Shown: in pieces, positions 1-9,659 of the stretch
Layout: the number at the start of each line of letters is the position of its first letter
Position numbering within the stretch: position 1 is the stretch's first letter
Assembly: GCA_031284225.1 (NCBI GenBank)
Contig: JAITAH010000129.1
Location: 1-9,738 of the forward strand
Direction of reading: 5' to 3'
DNA length: 9,738 bases
DNA from: Dysgonamonadaceae bacterium
Lineage (GTDB): Bacteria > Bacteroidota > Bacteroidia > Bacteroidales > Azobacteroidaceae
The notes under the pieces: model-generated
Databases searched by the model: none
Told to the model about the DNA's origin: nothing
The model's input: only the letters and a program-made list of their open reading frames with translations
Made by a program: the position numbers and the translations under genes

Positions 1-1799
1 TGGAAATTGGCCTCCTGTTGGCGCGAGGGCGCGGGCTGTTCCTTGCCCATCCCCAGGTTGTCGAAACTGTCTAAGTGGGAAGCCCTGCTGAGCGACACGG
101 CGCTCGTGGTTTCTTGCCACGTGTAGCCCGCCAGCACATCCACCGCGTGCGCCTCGTTCAGGCGTTTTGTCCAGGTGAGTAGCGCTTCGGCTTGCACCAC
201 GTCGGTGCGCCTGTTGCCAATAGCGCCCGAGCCTTTAATGTCCTGGTTCATGCCCAGGGCAGAGGTGGGCGGCGCAAAATAGCTTTGCGTGATATAATCG
301 ACGTTGGCGCCGGCGCTCGCCCGCACCTGAAGCCCGTCGATAATCGTATACTGGGCAAAAAAATTACCCTGCAACGAAGTGCCCCGCGTTTGCCCGATGC
401 TGTTCTCCAGGTCGGACACCGGATTGGTGGCATGGCCGTAGTAACTCAGGTCGGTATATTCAAACGGATTCACATAATTGTAGCCTCCGGCAGCGTCGTA
501 AATGGGCAATACCGGGGGCATGTAGAGCGCGTAGGTGAGCGAGTTGGCAATGCCGCGCGAGAAAGGAGAACTGCGGTAATTGGTGCCTTCGAAAGTGGTG
601 AGCGCATTTTGCGTACTCCGGCTCACCGAGGCAGTGACGCCGGTGGTGAGGCCGTCGAACACCTCTTTCTCCAAATTCAGCCGGCCGCTAAAACGGTCGA
701 AGCCCGAATTGAGGATAATTCCCTCTTGCGTCGTGTAATTACCCGAAATCAGGTAGCGCGTTTTATCATCGCCGCCGCTCACCGAGAGCTCGTGGGTTTG
801 CGAGCCGCCTGTTTGCAGCACGGCGTTTTGCCAGTCGGTGCCCCGGTCGAATTGCGCCAGCTCCGCCGCCGAATAATATAAACCCGGCTTGTTGTTAAAA
901 TATTCTTTCTGAATGGCGAGCCACTGTTTGGCGTTAAGCAGGCCGAGCGTTTTGGCCGGCCGGTCGAAGCCGATGCTATACTGGTAATGCACCGCATTAT
1001 TCCCGCGCCGCCCCTTTTTGGTGGTAACCAGTATCACGCCGTTCGCGCCGCGCGAGCCGTAGATGGCTTTGGCCGACACGTCTTTCAGTATTTCGATAGA
1101 CTCAATGTCGGCCGGATTGATGGCCGCCAGGGGGTTCAGGCTTCCGTCGATGCCGCCCACGCCGGCCTGTGTGGCATTCGTTTCGTTAAAAAAGATAAAG
1201 CCGTCGATCACGTATAGCGGTTCGTTGCTGGCGTTGATGGAATTTCCTCCACGGATACGGATACTGGAAGTAGCGCCGGGTTGTCCGGAATTTTGCGTTA
1301 CGTTCAGTCCGGCCACCGCGCCGCTCAACAGTGCATCGACCGACAGGGCCGAGCTGTACTTCAAATGCTCCTGCGAAACGCTTGAAACGGCGCCGGTCAA
1401 TTCTTTTCGCCGTTGCGTGCCGTATCCGATAACAACCACTTCGTCCAGTAAACCGGTATCTTCGGAGAGATATACGGTAAGCGGGGCAGCAGGTTTTTCT
1501 ACTATTACTTCTGCGCTTTTGTATCCGACATAAGTAACGGAAAGCGTTGCCGGAAACGATGTTGCTTGAAGAATAAAGTTTCCATCGACATCCGATACGG
1601 CGCCGGTTTTTTCACCGGACAGAAAAACCGTTGCTCCAATCAGAGGTTCTTTGCTTTTTTCATCGACAATACGCCCTTCGATGTTCCAACTGCGTTGTTG
1701 AGCAAATCCTGTTAATGAACAAAATATACCGATAAATATGAAAAAAACTTTTTGCCGGGAAAAATAATTCTTGCAAACAAATATTCTTATCTTTGCCAC
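1..1799 (-). CDS. SusC/RagA-family TonB-dependent outer-membrane receptor, N-terminal part (3' end off window)
   Basis: An uninterrupted minus-strand frame of 599 codons runs to the left edge. SusC-type receptors form the outer-membrane pore of glycan or peptide uptake complexes, capped by a SusD lipoprotein and energised by TonB. From the GTG at 1799 the order is: a signal peptide (basic residues, then hydrophobic VFFIFIGIFCSLTGFA, cleavage after Ala33); a carboxypeptidase-regulatory-like beta domain at about 38-113 (GRIVDEKSKEPLIGATV, SDVDGNF); the segment LDEVVVIGYGTQRRKELTGA at 118-137; and a plug with RIRGGNSINASNEPLYVIDG and AIYGSRGANGVILVTTKKG at about 178-263. The rest is the start of the beta barrel. 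Family members are usually about 1000 residues, so roughly 60% is present. No ATG lies in frame between the upstream stop near 1878 and the signal peptide, so GTG is the best start. Codons 1-130 are much poorer in GC than the barrel region. The substrate cannot be told. Family call near certain; start fairly likely. Confidence 0.96.
   Translation of the reverse strand, partial: MAKIRIFVCKNYFSRQKVFFIFIGIFCSLTGFAQQRSWNIEGRIVDEKSKEPLIGATVFLSGEKTGAVSDVDGNFILQATSFPATLSVTYVGYKSAEVIVEKPAAPLTVYLSEDTGLLDEVVVIGYGTQRRKELTGAVSSVSQEHLKYSSALSVDALLSGAVAGLNVTQNSGQPGATSSIRIRGGNSINASNEPLYVIDGFIFFNETNATQAGVGGIDGSLNPLAAINPADIESIEILKDVSAKAIYGSRGANGVILVTTKKGRRGNNAVHYQYSIGFDRPAKTLGLLNAKQWLAIQKEYFNNKPGLYYSAAELAQFDRGTDWQNAVLQTGGSQTHELSVSGGDDKTRYLISGNYTTQEGIILNSGFDRFSGRLNLEKEVFDGLTTGVTASVSRSTQNALTTFEGTNYRSSPFSRGIANSLTYALYMPPVLPIYDAAGGYNYVNPFEYTDLSYYGHATNPVSDLENSIGQTRGTSLQGNFFAQYTIIDGLQVRASAGANVDYITQSYFAPPTSALGMNQDIKGSGAIGNRRTDVVQAEALLTWTKRLNEAHAVDVLAGYTWQETTSAVSLSRASHLDSFDNLGMGKEQPAPSRQQEANF
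1788..1795 (+). promoter_or_regulatory. -7 box of the candidate antisense RNA
   Basis: TATCTTTG matches the Bacteroidota TAnnTTTG -7 consensus on the plus strand and would start transcription near 1799-1802. The nearest upstream TTG (1771-1773) is only 14 nt away, shorter than the usual 19-21, so the -33 element is poor or absent. The box lies inside the first codons of the receptor gene on the other strand. Confidence 0.4.
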
Positions 1800-1875
1800 G
1801 TTTATTAATGATTTAATAAATATTTCGAGCGCTTCTATTTCCGCTTGCAATTGGTTTGGAAGCGCTCTCTTTTTT
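1800..1875 (+). ncRNA. Candidate cis-antisense small RNA opposite the susC leader
   Basis: Three elements line up on the plus strand: a TAtcTTTG box at 1788-1795, no coding potential downstream, and a 9-bp GC-rich hairpin ending in a six-T run at 1875. The predicted RNA is about 75 nt. It starts at the receptor's GTG and is complementary to essentially the whole 5' leader. Known parallel: DonS-type antisense RNAs encoded opposite the 5' regions of susC homologues in Bacteroides, which repress the polysaccharide locus. Weak point: no good -33 TTTG lies 19-21 nt before the box. The alternative is that the hairpin serves only as a leader structure for the receptor mRNA. Confidence 0.5.
1827..1875 (+). 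terminator. Intrinsic terminator-like hairpin with T-run (antisense RNA end)
   Basis: GAGCGCTTC (1827-1835) pairs perfectly with GAAGCGCTC (1859-1867), followed by TCTTTTTT (1868-1875). The 23-nt loop is long for a terminator. TTCC (1839-1842) could also pair with GGAA (1858-1861) as a competing inner helix. The T-run lies on the plus-strand side only, which favours a role in ending a plus-strand transcript. Confidence 0.5.
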
Positions 1876-1881
1876 CGAGGA

Positions 1882-1912
1882 CAAAATTATAGACTGCTTG
1901 ATGATTCCCAAA
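1882..1912 (-). promoter_or_regulatory. Bacteroidota-type promoter of the susC-like gene
   Basis: Read on the minus strand, TTTG (1912-1909) is followed after exactly 19 nt by TAATTTTG (1889-1882). This matches the Bacteroidota consensus TTTG-N19/21-TAnnTTTG at both boxes. It places the transcription start near 1876-1878 and gives a leader of about 78 nt before the GTG at 1799. It is the only full two-box match seen upstream of the receptor. Confidence 0.7.
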
Positions 1913-2012
1913 TACCCTAAATGTGGTATTTTTTTCGATAGAGAGCGTATGGCCATTCCTCCCCTATCGTAAATCAATTTCCCCCTCTTGTTATACGGAA
2001 AAAATAAATAAT

Positions 2013-2921: not shown

Positions 2922-4721
2922 ATGAGAAAAGTATTATTAACAATTTGGGGATTGGCCTGTGCCGTGGGACTAACGGCGCAGTGGAATTCGAAAGAAAACC
3001 TGCGGGTGACCATTGACGGAATTATGGATTTTGAAGCGCAAACGAATAAAGACGGGATTACGTTTGTGGGATTTTGGGATTTGGTTGCAGAAGACCCTGC
3101 AAAGCAAGGAAACAGATACTCCGACGATTCGGATATCGCTTATTATTTGCAAATCCTCGACAAGGGAGGGAATAAACTATTTCCGGATAACGGTCGATTA
3201 GTCAGTCACGAACCCTCTCGATCGTTTAGTATGGGCGACGACAAAGCTATTTTTACAGATAGCGACGGCAATGCCCTTTATATTGTAAAAGACGAACGCA
3301 ATTGGAATAACGGTAACTATCCGAATCAGGGTTATTTCGTCTATAAAGTATCGCCTTCCGGTCAATTCCTTTGGGACGAACCGCTGGATTTGGACAAGGG
3401 GTATGCTTATTATATGGTTGCGAATATTAAGGTAATTGAACTGGCCGACGGCAGTTATATTTTTGCGCATGATATATATCTCGATGGCGGATACCTGTCC
3501 TACATAACAATAGATAAAGTATCGAAAGACGGCAAATTTCTTTGGAATGAACCTCTGTTATTGACGAATAACCTTTTTTCGTATTCTTTTCCCTTTTTGG
3601 TGGACGCCGGTTACGGTAATTTTGTTATCGTTTATTCCAAAAGCCCCGGATATCAAATGTATGCACAAAAATTTGATTTCGATAAAGGAAGCGTGTGGAG
3701 CAGTCCGCTGCCCATTTACAGCGGAGGCTTTACCGGCAACGCGTCTCCGTTTACCGCCGTTGAGGTAATTTCCGATCAAAAAGGCGGTTGTTTTGTCAGC
3801 TGGTACGACGATCGTTACAACAGTAAATATGAAAAAGCGTATGTCTCGCACATTTTGCCAAACGGAACACAGGGATTCGTTACTTCCAACGGTGAAGAAG
3901 GTTTGCGTTTGAGTTGGAATCCATACGTGCGCGCTTTCCGTCCGTCGTTATGTTACGATCCTGTCGGGGAGATCCTTTATGCCGCATGGGAAGAAGACGA
4001 TAGCGACCAGATTTTTCGAAGCATTGTCCTTCAAAAAATATCTAAAAACGGTAAATTATTCTGGACAAATTCGTTGATAAAAGAAGACAATACCAATGGA
4101 TTAGTATTAGACAGCCGTTGGTTGCCGGAGTCTGTGGGTTATTATACAATTCAGTTAGCCGGCGAAGGAAAAATTGCGGTTTTTCATCAACATGATTACA
4201 GTTCGGGCAATTCCGCTGAAAATATTGCTACGCTTTTTGACGTCAGTGGCGAACAACCGCAACAACTGAATGAAAAACTCATATTCGCTGAGAAAGGGAA
4301 ATCGAAGGCCGGTTTACTTTCATTGCCTTTATTCGATAACAACTATTTCCTCACGTTCTGGAGCGATTTCCGGACGTCCACACTCTCAAACGGAGCCGCC
4401 GTATTTGCACACAAAGTACTGTTGGACGACTTCGAGACCACTGCCATTCGTTTCCCGGAAACAGGATCGAACAGCCGTTTCGAAATCATTTCCGACAAGG
4501 CAAACGGTACTGTCGATTTTGTACTGGACAGTTCGAGGCAGGGAAATGCAACCCTCGAAATTTATTCCGTGACGGGACAAAAAGCAACCCGTATCCAGTC
4601 GAAGGTGCAGGCAGGAGAAAACGTCATTTCATGGAATGTTCAACATCTCCCCGCAAGTGTATATGTCGCTAAACTTACGACCCTGAACGGCGTGCAAGTA
4701 AAACAATTTATAGTTAAATAA
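2922..4721 (+). CDS. Exported repeat (beta-propeller-like) protein with T9SS type A sorting domain
   Basis: A 599-residue protein. A signal peptide (MRKVLLTIWGLACAVGLTA, then QW) directs export. The body, about 20-510, holds a motif recurring roughly every 60 residues, of form K-[VIF]-s-x-[DNSG]-G-x-x-l-W, near residues 76, 142, 199, 250, 310, 372, 438 and 497 (for example YKVSPSGQFLW, DKVSKDGKFLW, LQKISKNGKLFW). This spacing suggests seven or eight blades of a beta-propeller-like fold. Residues 520-599 form a T9SS type A C-terminal domain (TLEIYSVTGQ, LPASVYVAKL, final KQFIVK), which targets cargo through the outer membrane and is normally cleaved by PorU. No catalytic motif is visible, so binding or surface scaffolding is more likely than an enzyme. 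It is the first gene of a likely operon with 4793. The function beyond export is not known. Confidence 0.93.
   Translation: MRKVLLTIWGLACAVGLTAQWNSKENLRVTIDGIMDFEAQTNKDGITFVGFWDLVAEDPAKQGNRYSDDSDIAYYLQILDKGGNKLFPDNGRLVSHEPSRSFSMGDDKAIFTDSDGNALYIVKDERNWNNGNYPNQGYFVYKVSPSGQFLWDEPLDLDKGYAYYMVANIKVIELADGSYIFAHDIYLDGGYLSYITIDKVSKDGKFLWNEPLLLTNNLFSYSFPFLVDAGYGNFVIVYSKSPGYQMYAQKFDFDKGSVWSSPLPIYSGGFTGNASPFTAVEVISDQKGGCFVSWYDDRYNSKYEKAYVSHILPNGTQGFVTSNGEEGLRLSWNPYVRAFRPSLCYDPVGEILYAAWEEDDSDQIFRSIVLQKISKNGKLFWTNSLIKEDNTNGLVLDSRWLPESVGYYTIQLAGEGKIAVFHQHDYSSGNSAENIATLFDVSGEQPQQLNEKLIFAEKGKSKAGLLSLPLFDNNYFLTFWSDFRTSTLSNGAAVFAHKVLLDDFETTAIRFPETGSNSRFEIISDKANGTVDFVLDSSRQGNATLEIYSVTGQKATRIQSKVQAGENVISWNVQHLPASVYVAKLTTLNGVQVKQFIVK
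4520..4721 (+). other. T9SS C-terminal sorting domain (core of residues 534-599)
   Basis: The final strands show the conserved pattern of the type A sorting family: hydrophobic LEIYSVTGQ, then GENVISWNVQHLPASVYVAKL, a turn with NG, and VKQFIVK at the very end. The usual G-x-Y-x-x-K is present as S-V-Y-V-A-K. This is direct evidence that the host has a type IX secretion system, although none of its machinery is in the window. Confidence 0.88.
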
Positions 4722-4792: not shown

Positions 4793-7700
4793 ATGAAAAA
4801 AATTATCTTTTTTTTAGTGGGGTGCATCGTTGGTTTAGCGACCGCGACCGCACAAATCAACAGTTACAATTTTGCCTATACGGCAGGAACTTACTCCGAA
4901 ATTTCAGGAGGTACAACGGTTTATTCAGGGGCGGCTCAAGGCGCAGATTCTTTGCGTTTGGAAAATTACGCTTTTGTACCGGGCGATACCCTAATAAGTG
5001 AAATCGCTACCGTAACGGGTTATCCGATTGGATTTAATTTTAATTTGGGATCGCAAATCTTTACCCATTTTGCTATTAGTCCCAACGGTTTTATTTATTT
5101 GGGCGGCGAGTCGTTTACGGTAGATGCGACAGAGGTATCAAGCGATATCAATGTATCGTGGGGAAGCGGCACAAAAAACCCCGTTCTATCCGATAATAAC
5201 CGGTTTGAAGAAGGCGCTACCAACCTGTTGGGCTTTTCGCGTATAACAGCATCGGTAACATCGGACGGCAGCAATGATATTTCCGCTACCACAGCCGACG
5301 CCAACACCGAAATCAGTTATTCGCTCTCCGGAACTGCCGGAAGCCGGGTATTGACCATTCAATTTAAAAAAATTATCCTCTCGTGGTCGGCAACCGCTAT
5401 GGATGCGGTCGATGTACAAATCCGTTTGTATGAGGCCGACAGTAAAGTAGAACTGATTTTTAACGATTTTGCTCAAACCGACGAACGCGTTTGGGCTGAA
5501 ATCGGATTGAAAGGCAGTGTACTTGGAAATACGAAATATGTTTTCATCGATTCAGACAGCAATTGGTCAACGGCTACGGCAGACGTAACCGGCAATGTTA
5601 ATTTACGTAACACCGTTTGCGACAATGGCGCTACTTTTACGTTTACGCCTCCTCCTGCCTGCGTAGCTCCCGCATCCAAGCCAACCGGATTGGAAATGGA
5701 AGCCACATCCAATAGTATCGGCGGTTCTTTTGCGCCTGCCGACGCTGATAAATATTTGGTATTAGCAGGATTAACCGAAAATATTGCACTGATAGGAACC
5801 AACGATAAACCGAAGGCCGACAAAAGTTATAACGTAGGCGATTCAATCAACGGTAAATGGAGGGTAATTGCTTTTTCGTCCGCTACTACTTTTAGCTTTG
5901 ATGGACTGGAAAGTTCTACCGAATACACTGTTGCCGTTTATCCCGCTAACACGGAATGTCTGGGCGGACCTAAATATTATACAATGGGTACTCCTCTCAA
6001 CGACGTGATTAAGACCTTGCCGGGCGCTCCTCAATTGAGTATATCGGAAGGCGGTTTTACCGGTTTGAAATTAGCCGCCCAAGCCAATGCCGCTAACAAT
6101 CCGGTGATTGTGGCTGTCAACTCAGGGCAATGGGACGTTGATAATAACCAGAATCAATTGAACGACGGCGTTTTCGGTACCCCGACATTGAATATGAACA
6201 CAGGGGATCAATTGACCGGTGGAGGAAAAATAATCTATAAAGGCCCGGCTTCCAATGCGATTGAAGTAACCGGATTAGCGCCTAACAAACTGGTCAATTT
6301 CGCTGCATGGAGTTACGATGAAACGGACAATGCGATTTCCTCTACGCTGGTAAAATTAAATGTAACTACTTGGGGTGCATTGCCTTACTTATTAGATTTT
6401 TCGCAATATGCAGCTTATGGAATACCGGTTGACTGGGAGCAGGAAGGCAACTACTTTGAATTGAAACAAAACAACGCTACTCGGAGAGGAAATTTGCTGG
6501 AAGCAAGGGTTACTGGCGCATCGCCCCAAGCGTCTGCTTATAGCTCTATTGCTACTCAATACCTGCAATTAGCTCCGGGTAACAGCCGCTTGGTTTTATC
6601 CGGAATTCTGACTCATACAACCGGTTCTCGACCTTACGTTACGACCGGTTATACTGAATGGGAAGAAAACGACAATATGGCGTTTTTGGTAAAAAAAATA
6701 GGAGAAACCGATTATATCCCTGTTTATACGATTAACGCTTCCAATGCAGCCAACTTCTTTACAGATGCAACTGCCGCCGGCTCCTATTCGAATATAGTTA
6801 TTCCCATCGAAGGTTTTGGGAATGAAACGGTAAAAGTGAAAATTGCTTGGACAACGCATAAGACCGGTACACTCCTTTGGGATATTGCCAAGTTCCTCAT
6901 CGAAGAAAAATCCGACCACGAAGCGCCTATCAATCTAACCGTCGATCTGGCTTCGATTGTGGGCAATCAAGCTAAAATTACTTGGGAAAGACATGCGAAT
7001 GGAACAGAATCGGTCTGGGAAGTGCGTTATCGCCCCATCGATACCGAATGGAATACGCCGGTGCAGACAACCGATGTGAATTACCTGTTTACTACCTTGC
7101 CTGCTAATACAAAAGTGGAAGTATCGGTAAGAGCCGTTATTGGGCCGAACACATACAGTCCGTGGACAACGCCGATTTCCTTCAAAACGGCTTATGGATT
7201 GCCGTATAATGAAAATTTCAATAATTACGATGCGACCAGTTTCGGAACAAATTCGGGATGGACGCTTTCTCCTTCCAGTCCTTTGTATCTTGCATGGGAT
7301 GAAATTGCACGGGCGCTGCGTTTCGGTCTGAGACAATCGAATCCCCCGAAATATGCTACGGCGCTGTTGCCGAAACTGGACTTCGGAGACGGTTCTGCCA
7401 ACTACCGACTGGCATTCGATTTATCAATCGAGAATCCGGATTACCCCATCAATAGTACCGATTCGATCTATGTAATAGACAATACGGCCGAAGGGGAAAT
7501 TATTTTGAAAAAATATCATGACGTATCGGGAAAAGAGACTATCGACCTTGAAGGATTTTCCGGAATCAAACAGCTCGGTTTCAAACTGGTAGAAGGAACA
7601 AGAGACAACGGAGCATATCTGCTGGATGATGTAAGCATTTTCCCGACCTGTTCCGTTGCAGTAAGCAACGCGCAAGCCTCCGAAATCACTACCGAAGGAG

Positions 7701-8977
7701 CCAAAGTATCGTGGGAAGGCGAAGCCTCCGAATGGCTGGTATTTATCCGCAAGGCCGGCGAAACGACTAAAGATTTCGTTGTCCGGACGGAGAAAGACTC
7801 CTTGTTTACCGGTCTGGACGAAGCGACCGCTTACGAGGTGGGCATTACAACGTCCTGCGTTCCGGGCGATACGGCACAGGTAACCATTGTCCGGTTTACA
7901 ACGCGAACATCCATTCCCTGCGGTCAGGCAAGCCATATCGAAGCGACTTCCACTACCGAAAGCGTAAGCCTTACCTGGGAATCGGAAGCCTACAAATTCA
8001 ACGTAAAATTGCGTGCAGTTGGAACCGACGCTTGGCAAGAACGTACCGTAGCGGGAAAAACATTCACTTTCACCGGTTTAACGCACAATACCGATTATGA
8101 GTATTCCATTCAAACGATTTGCGACGCCGAAGGCGACGTCAGCGAATATACAACTCCGGCTACCGTTAAAACCGTAGAAATCACCTGTTTGGCGCCGACC
8201 AATCTCGTAGCCGATCTTTTGGCTTACAATTCGGCTACTCTTTCATGGGAAGGCGCTGCCTCCAAGTATGAATTATCATGGGCGCAAACCGGCAACGACT
8301 GGACGGTGGCTGTCGTGGAAGGCAAATCGTACAATCTGATCGATTTGATTCCTCAAACGGCTTATCAGGCAAAAGTTCGCGCCATCTGTGCCGCAACCGA
8401 CACGAGCGCATATACGGACGTTTATTCGTTCACGACTCCGGCTATTCCGGCCTGCCCGATTCCGACCGGTCTGAGCGCCGGCTCCATCAACGATCACTCG
8501 GCGATCCTCAGCTGGACGGCCGACGCGGCCAATACTTCCTGGGACTTGCGTTACCGTTCCGGAACTTCTTCTTCTTCGATTGACGTTGAAGGACTTGCGG
8601 TCTCATGGTATGAATTGACCGGTTTGACGGCAAATACGGTTTATTTATGGCAGGTAAAAGCGCATTGCGCCTCAACGAACAATGAGAGCGTTTACGCTTC
8701 GCAGGAAAACTTTACGACCGCCTCGACAAGCATTACTTCAGTCAACAGCGGCGCATTGAAAGTGGCTGTTTCCAACCGCCTTATCAGCGTACTGAATCCG
8801 GAAGGCGCATACATCAACAACATTCGCTTGTACGCAGTAGATGGCAGCTTGTTGCAGGATTTCGACGTTCGTTCGACCGACAATGTGTTGATACAGACGT
8901 ATATAACGCAACAGATTGCGATAGTGAATGTTATCGGTAAAGATACGCAAGCTGTTTTCAAAGTAGCGGTGAAATAA
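4793..8977 (+). CDS. Large exported multidomain adhesin-like protein (two cleaved-adhesin/J modules, Cys-paired Fn3 repeats, T9SS-like tail)
   Basis: 1394 residues. Signal peptide 1-20 (MKKIIFFLVGCIVGLATATA). An all-beta N-terminal module spans about 22-275 (YPIGFNFNLGSQIFTHFAIS at 77-96), a type recurring in T9SS cargo. Fn3-like modules follow at about 290-403 and 404-527. A choice-of-anchor J/cleaved-adhesin-type module begins LPYLLDFSQY at 530 and runs to about 705. There is an Fn3 at 711-800 and a second J module at 803-950 (LPYNENFNNY to AYLLDDVSIFPTC). Four Fn3 repeats of 89-92 residues start at Cys953, Cys1043, Cys1132 and Cys1221, each with a second Cys 67-71 residues on. The tail 1317-1394 resembles a sorting domain (NNIRLYAVDGSLLQDF, final FKVAVK) but lacks the usual G-x-Y. 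J modules in gingipains and HagA bind host proteins, so an adhesin or matrix role is inferred. It follows 2922 by 71 bp without a terminator between, so the two are probably co-transcribed. Confidence 0.92.
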   Translation: MKKIIFFLVGCIVGLATATAQINSYNFAYTAGTYSEISGGTTVYSGAAQGADSLRLENYAFVPGDTLISEIATVTGYPIGFNFNLGSQIFTHFAISPNGFIYLGGESFTVDATEVSSDINVSWGSGTKNPVLSDNNRFEEGATNLLGFSRITASVTSDGSNDISATTADANTEISYSLSGTAGSRVLTIQFKKIILSWSATAMDAVDVQIRLYEADSKVELIFNDFAQTDERVWAEIGLKGSVLGNTKYVFIDSDSNWSTATADVTGNVNLRNTVCDNGATFTFTPPPACVAPASKPTGLEMEATSNSIGGSFAPADADKYLVLAGLTENIALIGTNDKPKADKSYNVGDSINGKWRVIAFSSATTFSFDGLESSTEYTVAVYPANTECLGGPKYYTMGTPLNDVIKTLPGAPQLSISEGGFTGLKLAAQANAANNPVIVAVNSGQWDVDNNQNQLNDGVFGTPTLNMNTGDQLTGGGKIIYKGPASNAIEVTGLAPNKLVNFAAWSYDETDNAISSTLVKLNVTTWGALPYLLDFSQYAAYGIPVDWEQEGNYFELKQNNATRRGNLLEARVTGASPQASAYSSIATQYLQLAPGNSRLVLSGILTHTTGSRPYVTTGYTEWEENDNMAFLVKKIGETDYIPVYTINASNAANFFTDATAAGSYSNIVIPIEGFGNETVKVKIAWTTHKTGTLLWDIAKFLIEEKSDHEAPINLTVDLASIVGNQAKITWERHANGTESVWEVRYRPIDTEWNTPVQTTDVNYLFTTLPANTKVEVSVRAVIGPNTYSPWTTPISFKTAYGLPYNENFNNYDATSFGTNSGWTLSPSSPLYLAWDEIARALRFGLRQSNPPKYATALLPKLDFGDGSANYRLAFDLSIENPDYPINSTDSIYVIDNTAEGEIILKKYHDVSGKETIDLEGFSGIKQLGFKLVEGTRDNGAYLLDDVSIFPTCSVAVSNAQASEITTEGAKVSWEGEASEWLVFIRKAGETTKDFVVRTEKDSLFTGLDEATAYEVGITTSCVPGDTAQVTIVRFTTRTSIPCGQASHIEATSTTESVSLTWESEAYKFNVKLRAVGTDAWQERTVAGKTFTFTGLTHNTDYEYSIQTICDAEGDVSEYTTPATVKTVEITCLAPTNLVADLLAYNSATLSWEGAASKYELSWAQTGNDWTVAVVEGKSYNLIDLIPQTAYQAKVRAICAATDTSAYTDVYSFTTPAIPACPIPTGLSAGSINDHSAILSWTADAANTSWDLRYRSGTSSSSIDVEGLAVSWYELTGLTANTVYLWQVKAHCASTNNESVYASQENFTTASTSITSVNSGALKVAVSNRLISVLNPEGAYINNIRLYAVDGSLLQDFDVRSTDNVLIQTYITQQIAIVNVIGKDTQAVFKVAVK
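7649..8735 (+). repeat. Four tandem Fn3 repeats with a conserved cysteine pair
   Basis: Within the 1394-residue protein, modules begin at Cys953, Cys1043, Cys1132 and Cys1221. Each has the b-strand motif (V/L)(S/T)W near residue +20 (KVSWEGEA, SLTWESEA, TLSWEGAA, ILSWTADA), a TGL-x-x-x-T-x-Y segment, and a second Cys (1022, 1110, 1199, 1292). The very regular spacing suggests one disulfide per module linking the first strand to the end of strand F, and expansion by internal duplication. The DNA copies are diverged, so the duplications are old. Confidence 0.85.
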
Positions 8978-9560: not shown

Positions 9561-9659
9561 ATGAGAAAAATGATGAAAAGATTAATAAAGTTTAACCATA
9601 ATTATTTGGTAGTTATCTCGAAAAAAATAGAGAGAGAGAGAGAGAGACACATTTTATAA
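9561..9659 (+). CDS. Short ORF across an AG microsatellite; possible out-of-phase gene start
   Basis: ATG at 9561 begins MRKMMKRLIKFNHNYLVVIS, then runs into ERERER encoded by the AG repeat, and stops at TAA 9657-9659 after 32 residues. It lies about 95 nt after a good promoter. The frame that starts at the repeat and continues as ETHFINNFVFNRLRLTAANE stays open to the window edge. Loss of one AG unit, or gain of two, would join the ATG to it. So this may be a phase-variable or frameshifted gene start; it may equally be a chance ORF in a leader. No domain is recognised. Confidence 0.25.
   Translation: MRKMMKRLIKFNHNYLVVISKKIERERERHIL
9629..9647. repeat. (AG)9 dinucleotide microsatellite
   Basis: Nineteen bases of uninterrupted alternating AG, far longer than expected by chance. 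It lies inside the short frame beginning at 9561. Dinucleotide tracts of this size are prone to slipped-strand changes, and a change here alters the reading frame. Confidence 0.95.

Follow-up and report, generated by a model that had tools for sequence, protein, structure and literature searches.

The leader of a SusC/RagA-type TonB-linked receptor gene in a Dysgonamonadaceae bacterium is probably the target of a DonS-like antisense RNA that is encoded in cis on the opposite strand. The gene lies at one end of a 9,738-nucleotide stretch (contig JAITAH010000129.1 of assembly GCA_031284225.1), hereafter the window. The signals of this antisense cassette, its place at the receptor start and its conservation can be read directly in the DNA, and they suggest that the RNA would be transcribed and would repress the receptor. 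A preliminary description of the window had proposed such a cassette opposite the susC leader, and our analysis revealed equivalent cassettes at the corresponding position of many SusC receptors, with covarying stems and an associated promoter box and terminator.

On the plus strand, the TAnnTTTG box, the 9-bp hairpin and the T-run all lie where they had first been placed, as does the two-box receptor promoter on the minus strand (Table 1). In promoters of the sigma-ABfr type, transcription starts approximately 7 nt after the -7 box, which would give a plus-strand RNA of approximately 1802-1876 and a receptor mRNA starting near 1875, and thus two complementary leaders of approximately 75 nt each. 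The length and the leader coverage originally predicted are thereby retained, but the RNA had been taken to start at the start codon itself; with the likely GTG at 1799 and the +1 position at approximately 1802, it would instead begin beside the GTG and probably does not cover it. The 9-bp stem (SL2) had likewise been seen correctly, but a second, AT-rich hairpin (SL1) had been overlooked. Folding energies are -24.8 kcal/mol for the plus-strand RNA, taken as 1800-1876 (z -5.8; equalled by 0 of 200 shuffles), and -17.9 kcal/mol for the minus-strand sense leader (z -3.8); the T-run is present on the antisense strand only. When both strands of the whole window were scanned mechanically for a strong hairpin with T-run lying within 35-150 nt after a TAnnTTTG, this one cassette was returned. 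A generic scan for sigma-70 promoters and for terminators whose loops span 3-8 had no hit in positions 1600-2100; neither such a promoter type nor so long a loop falls within its reach. A sigma-70 promoter for the cassette was rejected, and so was an isolated inverted repeat, since the same design recurs at many SusC starts.

Table 1. Positions of the receptor gene, its promoter and the antisense cassette in the window.
Feature	Position	Strand	Remarks
Antisense promoter -7 box, TATCTTTG	1788-1795	plus	exact TAnnTTTG; overlaps receptor codons 2-4 (GCA AAG ATA)
Predicted antisense RNA, ~75 nt	1802-1876	plus	box, two hairpins, T-run; matched by covariance models R1/R2; 5' end placed ~7 nt past the box
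SL1, AT-rich 5' hairpin	1800-1821	plus	from the fold; adjoins the start-codon complement
SL2, GC-rich 3' terminator hairpin	1827-1867	plus	9-bp stem, GAGCGCTTC (1827-1835) with GAAGCGCTC (1859-1867); from fold and covariation
SL2 loop with TTGC core, CCGCTTGCAATTGG	1841-1854	plus	read from the sequence
Antisense terminator T-run, TCTTTTTT	1868-1875	plus	read from the sequence
SusC/RagA TonB-linked receptor, 5' part (599 codons)	3-1799	minus	GTG start at 1797-1799; no N-terminal signalling extension
Receptor promoter -7 box, TAATTTTG	1882-1889	minus	read from the sequence
Receptor promoter -33 box, TTTG	1909-1912	minus	N19 between TTTG and -7 box
Palindrome TACCCTAAATGTGGTA, form TACCN8GGTA	1913-1928		abuts the receptor -33 box on its upstream side

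Relatives of the cassette were sought first by a mechanical search for box, hairpin and T-run in 80 SusC loci (562 kb), with no condition set on the loop or the start codon. It gave 18 antisense and 7 sense hits, and nine of the former but none of the latter fell near the receptor start, between 330 nt upstream of receptor residue 40 and 60 nt downstream of it. Five of these nine (L002, L003, L005, L014 and L029) have the layout of the window, all with TTGC in the loop, and the other four (L010, L028, L046 and L048) look unrelated to it. The window, these five and two loci picked by eye (L007 and L008) formed an eight-row seed, from which L019 was left out because it aligned badly. In the seed, 98.6% of 72 stem cells are paired and six of the nine pairs show changes on both sides. 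Covariance model R1 was built from the seed and R2 from 27 sequences, in which 96.3% of 241 SL2 stem cells are paired and eight of nine pairs carry double changes, whereas sliding the partner by 1-3 columns lowers pairing to 45-66%; this alignment was fitted to the structure and so leans towards it. The set then assembled (A6) held 70 rows and, once six sense-strand echoes were dropped, 64 including the window; it excludes the weak hits L091-L095, L104-L106, L134, L144-L148, L152-L155 and L158, and L166 lay above the threshold. Opposite a SusC-type start stand 58 of these 64 cassettes of termite-gut-type Bacteroidales, a count of loci examined (at most 30 taken per search) whose rows are related to one another. 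The remaining six are L099, L109, L113 (integrase-like), L114 (short frame), L129 and L164 (NifH-like). Their recurrence before dozens of related receptors gives these cassettes the appearance of a family of RNAs that silence receptors; our search of the open-licence literature found no account of such a family outside Bacteroides.

The -7 box is exact at its aligned position in 54 of the 64 cassettes, and estimated RNA lengths have a median of 71 nt (range 64-92). The start triplet is CAT in 57, CAC in 6 and CTC in 1, and on the sense strand codon 2 is ACA (30) or GCA (27), codon 3 AAA (32), AAG (19) or AAT (11), and codon 4 GTA (26), TTA (26), ATA (4) or CTA (4), the rest differing; these shares are biased since the box belongs to the model, and the association found below in receptors chosen by protein is free of that bias. 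The first receptor residues, M-[AT]-[KN]-[VLI], thus follow from the antisense promoter, being TAnnTTTG read from the opposite side. TTGC is present in 40 of the 64 loops (mean of 5.9 in shuffled loops), and an SL1-like stem scoring at least 10, whose pairs lie outside the model, in 45 (shuffles: mean 13.6, most 23). The palindrome CAATTG, for which a kissing contact had been envisaged, is indeed in the window loop, but only 10 of the 64 loops share it, and L107, the cassette nearest to that of the window, has CAACCG there; a role for CAATTG as the conserved contact was therefore rejected.

Such an inverted repeat might also act in the sense mRNA leader, as a stability element or a protein or ligand site, with the look of an antisense terminator as a by-product. 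The sense leader of the window does fold, as the values above indicate, loops are alike among paralogues, and L164 retains hairpin and loop before its NifH-like gene despite a degenerate antisense box. The strand polarity of the elements argues against this explanation, beginning with the T-run on the antisense strand. When the SL2 stem was refound symmetrically, 60 G-U pairs, possible on the antisense strand only, stood against 18 sense-only A-C pairs (47 versus 11 in the aligned columns), and fold energy is lower on the antisense strand in 53 of 64 cassettes and on the sense strand in 10, with the caveats that the model somewhat favours G-U and that the rows are related. Moreover, 19 of the 64 have a TTG resembling a -33 box 20 nt before the antisense box (0-6 at other spacings of 12-29), an in-gene signal outside the model to which shared receptor coding sequence could add and which the window does not have. 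Together with the census association between start-codon box and hairpin, this polarity makes a role confined to the sense leader improbable.

For the census, SusC receptors were picked by TIGR04056 in three genomes chosen for their R2 matches (20 from each, out of 31 matches in G006, 50 in G338 and 39 in G392), and the box was defined as [AG]TG[AG]CAAAnnTA at the start codon. Fifteen of the 60 receptors bear it. Under a relaxed terminator rule, an antisense hairpin and T-run accompany 10 of these 15 but 5 of the 45 others (p 7e-5); with the initial, stricter rule the counts were 7 of 15 and 4 of 45, and loop, score and range were then relaxed because loops over 25 nt had been missed. By genome, box-bearing receptors have the terminator in 5 of 5 cases (G006), 3 of 4 (G338) and 2 of 6 (G392). 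Across 39 Bacteroidales loci, 8 of 38 SusC frames have the box at a candidate start, against 1 of 193 other frames. These data also bear on whether the cassette could be an insulator, that is, a terminator halting stray antisense transcription into the receptor promoter with no regulatory RNA involved. The well-conserved stem and an antisense promoter that is weak on paper in the window would suit such a device; a bare terminator would need neither an exact -7 box at fixed codons, kept in 54 of 64 rows (admittedly retrieved by a model that includes box and loop), nor the loop and SL1 kept in many of them, and we consider this explanation very unlikely.

Several observations weigh against an antisense RNA that silences the receptor. 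The model includes box, stem and loop, so the A6 counts for these elements lean in favour of our interpretation, and the wobble excess in SL1 (G-U share 36 to 5) does not clearly exceed the expectation from composition. The window antisense promoter is without a -33 box, its nearest TTG lying 14 nt upstream of the -7 box and not 19-20. In the three census genomes, 45 of 60 SusC starts are without the box, and in G392 four of the six box-bearing receptors have no terminator under the relaxed rule, one of which (L250/L165) R2 does match. L107 carries an imperfect -7 box: loss of box and hairpin in close relatives had been named beforehand as evidence against the cassette, and the outcome is mixed, as L107 and L007 keep the hairpin but have TTTCTTTG in place of TATCTTTG. 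In L007/L107 the receptor frame from the GTG start is also disturbed near a run of 15 G in the signal-peptide region, as either phase variation or an assembly artefact. Finally, in Bacteroides thetaiotaomicron some antisense RNAs of polysaccharide utilization loci (PULs) correlate positively with their receptor (PMC10994844).

If the cassette works as we propose, the antisense RNA would be produced when the receptor is unwanted and would pair with the leader of approximately 75 nt, perhaps through a first contact of the loop and the AT-rich hairpin followed by a full duplex. This duplex would block the translation start and open the receptor mRNA to decay, and convergent transcription would add interference. 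When substrate is present, the receptor promoter would be activated by way of the TACCN8GGTA site, and this activation would prevail over the antisense RNA. The SL2 loop may serve as first contact or as a protein site. In the sampled genomes the cassette is present at a subset of SusC receptors, and most of these have the TACCN8GGTA operator. CopA/CopT and RNA I are comparable, as hairpin RNAs fully complementary to a target leader that make loop contact first; the cassettes differ in lying at chromosomal receptor genes with a Bacteroidota promoter.

Pairing energies suggest that such control would be exerted in cis. For eight cassettes, cognate pairs reach -125 to -145 kcal/mol and non-cognate pairs -30 to -108 kcal/mol, and shuffles average -21 to -25 kcal/mol and reach -41; non-cognate pairing, near-copies aside, is far weaker than cognate pairing and overlaps the shuffles at its weak end. 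Action mainly in trans, in which a shared loop lets the RNA of one cassette engage the leaders of other receptors, would draw on the 40 loops with TTGC and on non-cognate energies beyond the shuffle averages. Several of these energies are nevertheless within the range of chance, the strongest non-cognate pair is that of the window with its near-copy L107, and stems differ among paralogues, so that predominant trans action appears highly unlikely. A more elaborate scheme would make the cassettes a family of their own, antisense RNAs embedded at start codons, in which the antisense promoter dictates M-[AT]-[KN]-[VLI] and the common TTGC loop is a shared address. One protein or RNA partner, or loop-loop contact among paralogues, would then couple many SusC receptors of one TACCN8GGTA regulon, and a receptor that is switched on would silence its competitors; we hold this to be rather doubtful.

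The TACCN8GGTA palindrome, in the window a possible activator site, occurs upstream in 29 of the 64 cassette loci. Of these, 24 also have a sense TAnnTTTG, and in 22 of them the palindrome stops exactly 23 nt short of that box, as it does in the window. In the census it accompanies 11 of the 15 receptors with the box and 6 of the 45 without it (p 3e-5), and none of 40 in the Bacteroides-type genome G632. Receptors with the cassette thus seem to belong to one regulon. As to the history of the cassettes, the window and L107 are 86% identical in cassette and 52% in receptor, whereas the receptors nearest to that of the window (L138 and L116, 61 and 60% identity) have cassettes only 54 and 65% identical to it. 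On a receptor tree of 91 rows, an uneven comparison set with several long branches, the cassette needs 13 changes (29 with shuffled labels), 11 of them forced by well-supported branches. Being clustered yet requiring 13 changes, the cassette would have been repeatedly gained or lost and kept within groups, and exchange of cassettes between receptors is possible.

At E <= 0.01, R2 matched 18 of 39 genomes of the G006 family (Dysgonamonadaceae), 16 of which have a SusC-linked match among the loci examined (not G329 and G336), and 8 of 40 genomes of the G009 family (Tannerella sp.), four with SusC-linked matches (G009, G383, G392 and G395) and four with weak, unlinked ones; G006, G010 and G009 had themselves fed the model. 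Several genomes carry multiple copies. In the Mediterranea family (G013; Bacteroidaceae by our reading), R2 with stricter filters gave hits at E <= 0.1 in 5 of 41 genomes, none opposite a SusC start (L144-L148, E 0.005-0.06). R1 across 295 Bacteroidales genomes matched five at E <= 0.01, two of them seed-locus genomes, and R2 across 395 Bacteroidota genomes matched G006 alone; both searches are weak negatives because their strict filters scored only 11-15 candidates per genome. Viral contigs gave 14 pattern matches, with no cassette relative among them. Some cassette-like sequences lie apart from receptors: L113 (G160:C23) is opposite an integrase-like gene start; L164 (G009:C380:3081-3166) has a leader hairpin, loop and palindrome before the NifH-like gene; and L137 (G331:C40:80902-80980; E 1.4e-7), outside A6, has a strong hairpin, conserved loop and T-run with no receptor frame on either side or strand.

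The receptor of DonS in Bacteroides fragilis reportedly belongs to a host-glycan PUL under an extracytoplasmic function (ECF) sigma/anti-sigma pair. The defining account of DonS is Cao et al. 2016; according to later ones, DonS represents RNAs of 78-128 nt whose genes lie opposite susC homologues and which reduce the expression of these (PMC7366714), 32 PUL-associated antisense RNAs in B. thetaiotaomicron show negative and positive correlations with their receptor (PMC10994844), and the mechanism of DonS silencing is called unknown, with ECF sigma/anti-sigma control said to be typical of host-glycan PULs (PMC11697453). The cassette is DonS-like in encoding a short RNA opposite a susC homologue start, with a sigma-ABfr-type -7 box, an intrinsic terminator and an expected repression. 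The DonS-type layout named in the preliminary description is therefore found here, and the searches made gave no link to the sequence family of DonS itself: Rfam gave no match near 1788-1912 up to E 5, in a copy that may not include FopS, and the 41 Mediterranea-family genomes, under strict filters, gave no receptor-linked match. The cassette differs from DonS in its promoter within codons 2-4, its common loop motif and its other host families, and the window receptor has no N-terminal extension and thus does not fall among the receptors of ECF-controlled host-glycan PULs. Its predicted length is approximately 75 nt in the window and 64-92 nt in relatives, against 78-128 nt for the DonS type; the sigma-ABfr -7 box is exact in the window and the -33 box absent there, with a -33-like TTG enriched in relatives.

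Small RNAs of the FopS/GibS group, which act with RbpB, offer another comparison (PMC11697453): they too reach susC translation starts, are multi-copy per genome and have a terminator hairpin, and FopS is deposited in Rfam. FopS is distinguished by a conserved single-stranded 5' seed and targets elsewhere, whereas the cassette RNA would start with a hairpin and be complementary to the adjacent leader over its full length. In G632, 9 of 40 SusC receptors have some antisense hairpin and T-run upstream, with TAnnTTTG near the start in some, and six of these nine genes have long N-terminal extensions (L195, L205, L215, L216, L222 and L225). These hairpins are possibly DonS-like RNAs; their stems and loops are unlike those of the cassette, and the census test placed the box at codons 2-4 in 0 of 40 receptors. 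Leader antisense RNAs thus seem to occur in both groups, with differing receptor types and RNA sequences. With the cassettes, control by antisense RNAs at leaders would reach beyond Bacteroides into the families to which the Dysgonamonadaceae and Tannerella records belong, and a promoter would dictate the initial codons of a protein encoded on the opposite strand. Their many natural variants, which share one architecture and have covarying stems and a loop that recurs, would allow direct tests of the part that is needed and of cross-talk among receptors.

The window receptor itself matches TIGR04056 at 449 bits (cut-off 368) and contains the Pfam domains CarbopepD_reg_2, from residue 40, and Plug; its start is likely the GTG at 1799. 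Relatives covering 96-98% of the query are 71-79% identical, including metagenome-assembled genomes labelled Tannerellaceae and Candidatus Symbiothrix, and partial relatives reach 87% identity. Neither a sigma nor an anti-sigma factor was found in the two other long window frames scanned, and the downstream side of the receptor lies beyond the window. A TIGR04183 type IX secretion system (T9SS) sorting domain (31.6 bits, cut-off 23; the corresponding Pfam model falls just below its cut-off) is consistent with the T9SS-bearing relative of Bacteroides that the preliminary description had supposed. On the plus strand, positions 2922-4721 and 4793-8977 encode the T9SS sorting-domain protein and a large fibronectin type III protein, both oriented away from the receptor, and a GA dinucleotide run occupies 9629-9647 in the non-coding end of the window.

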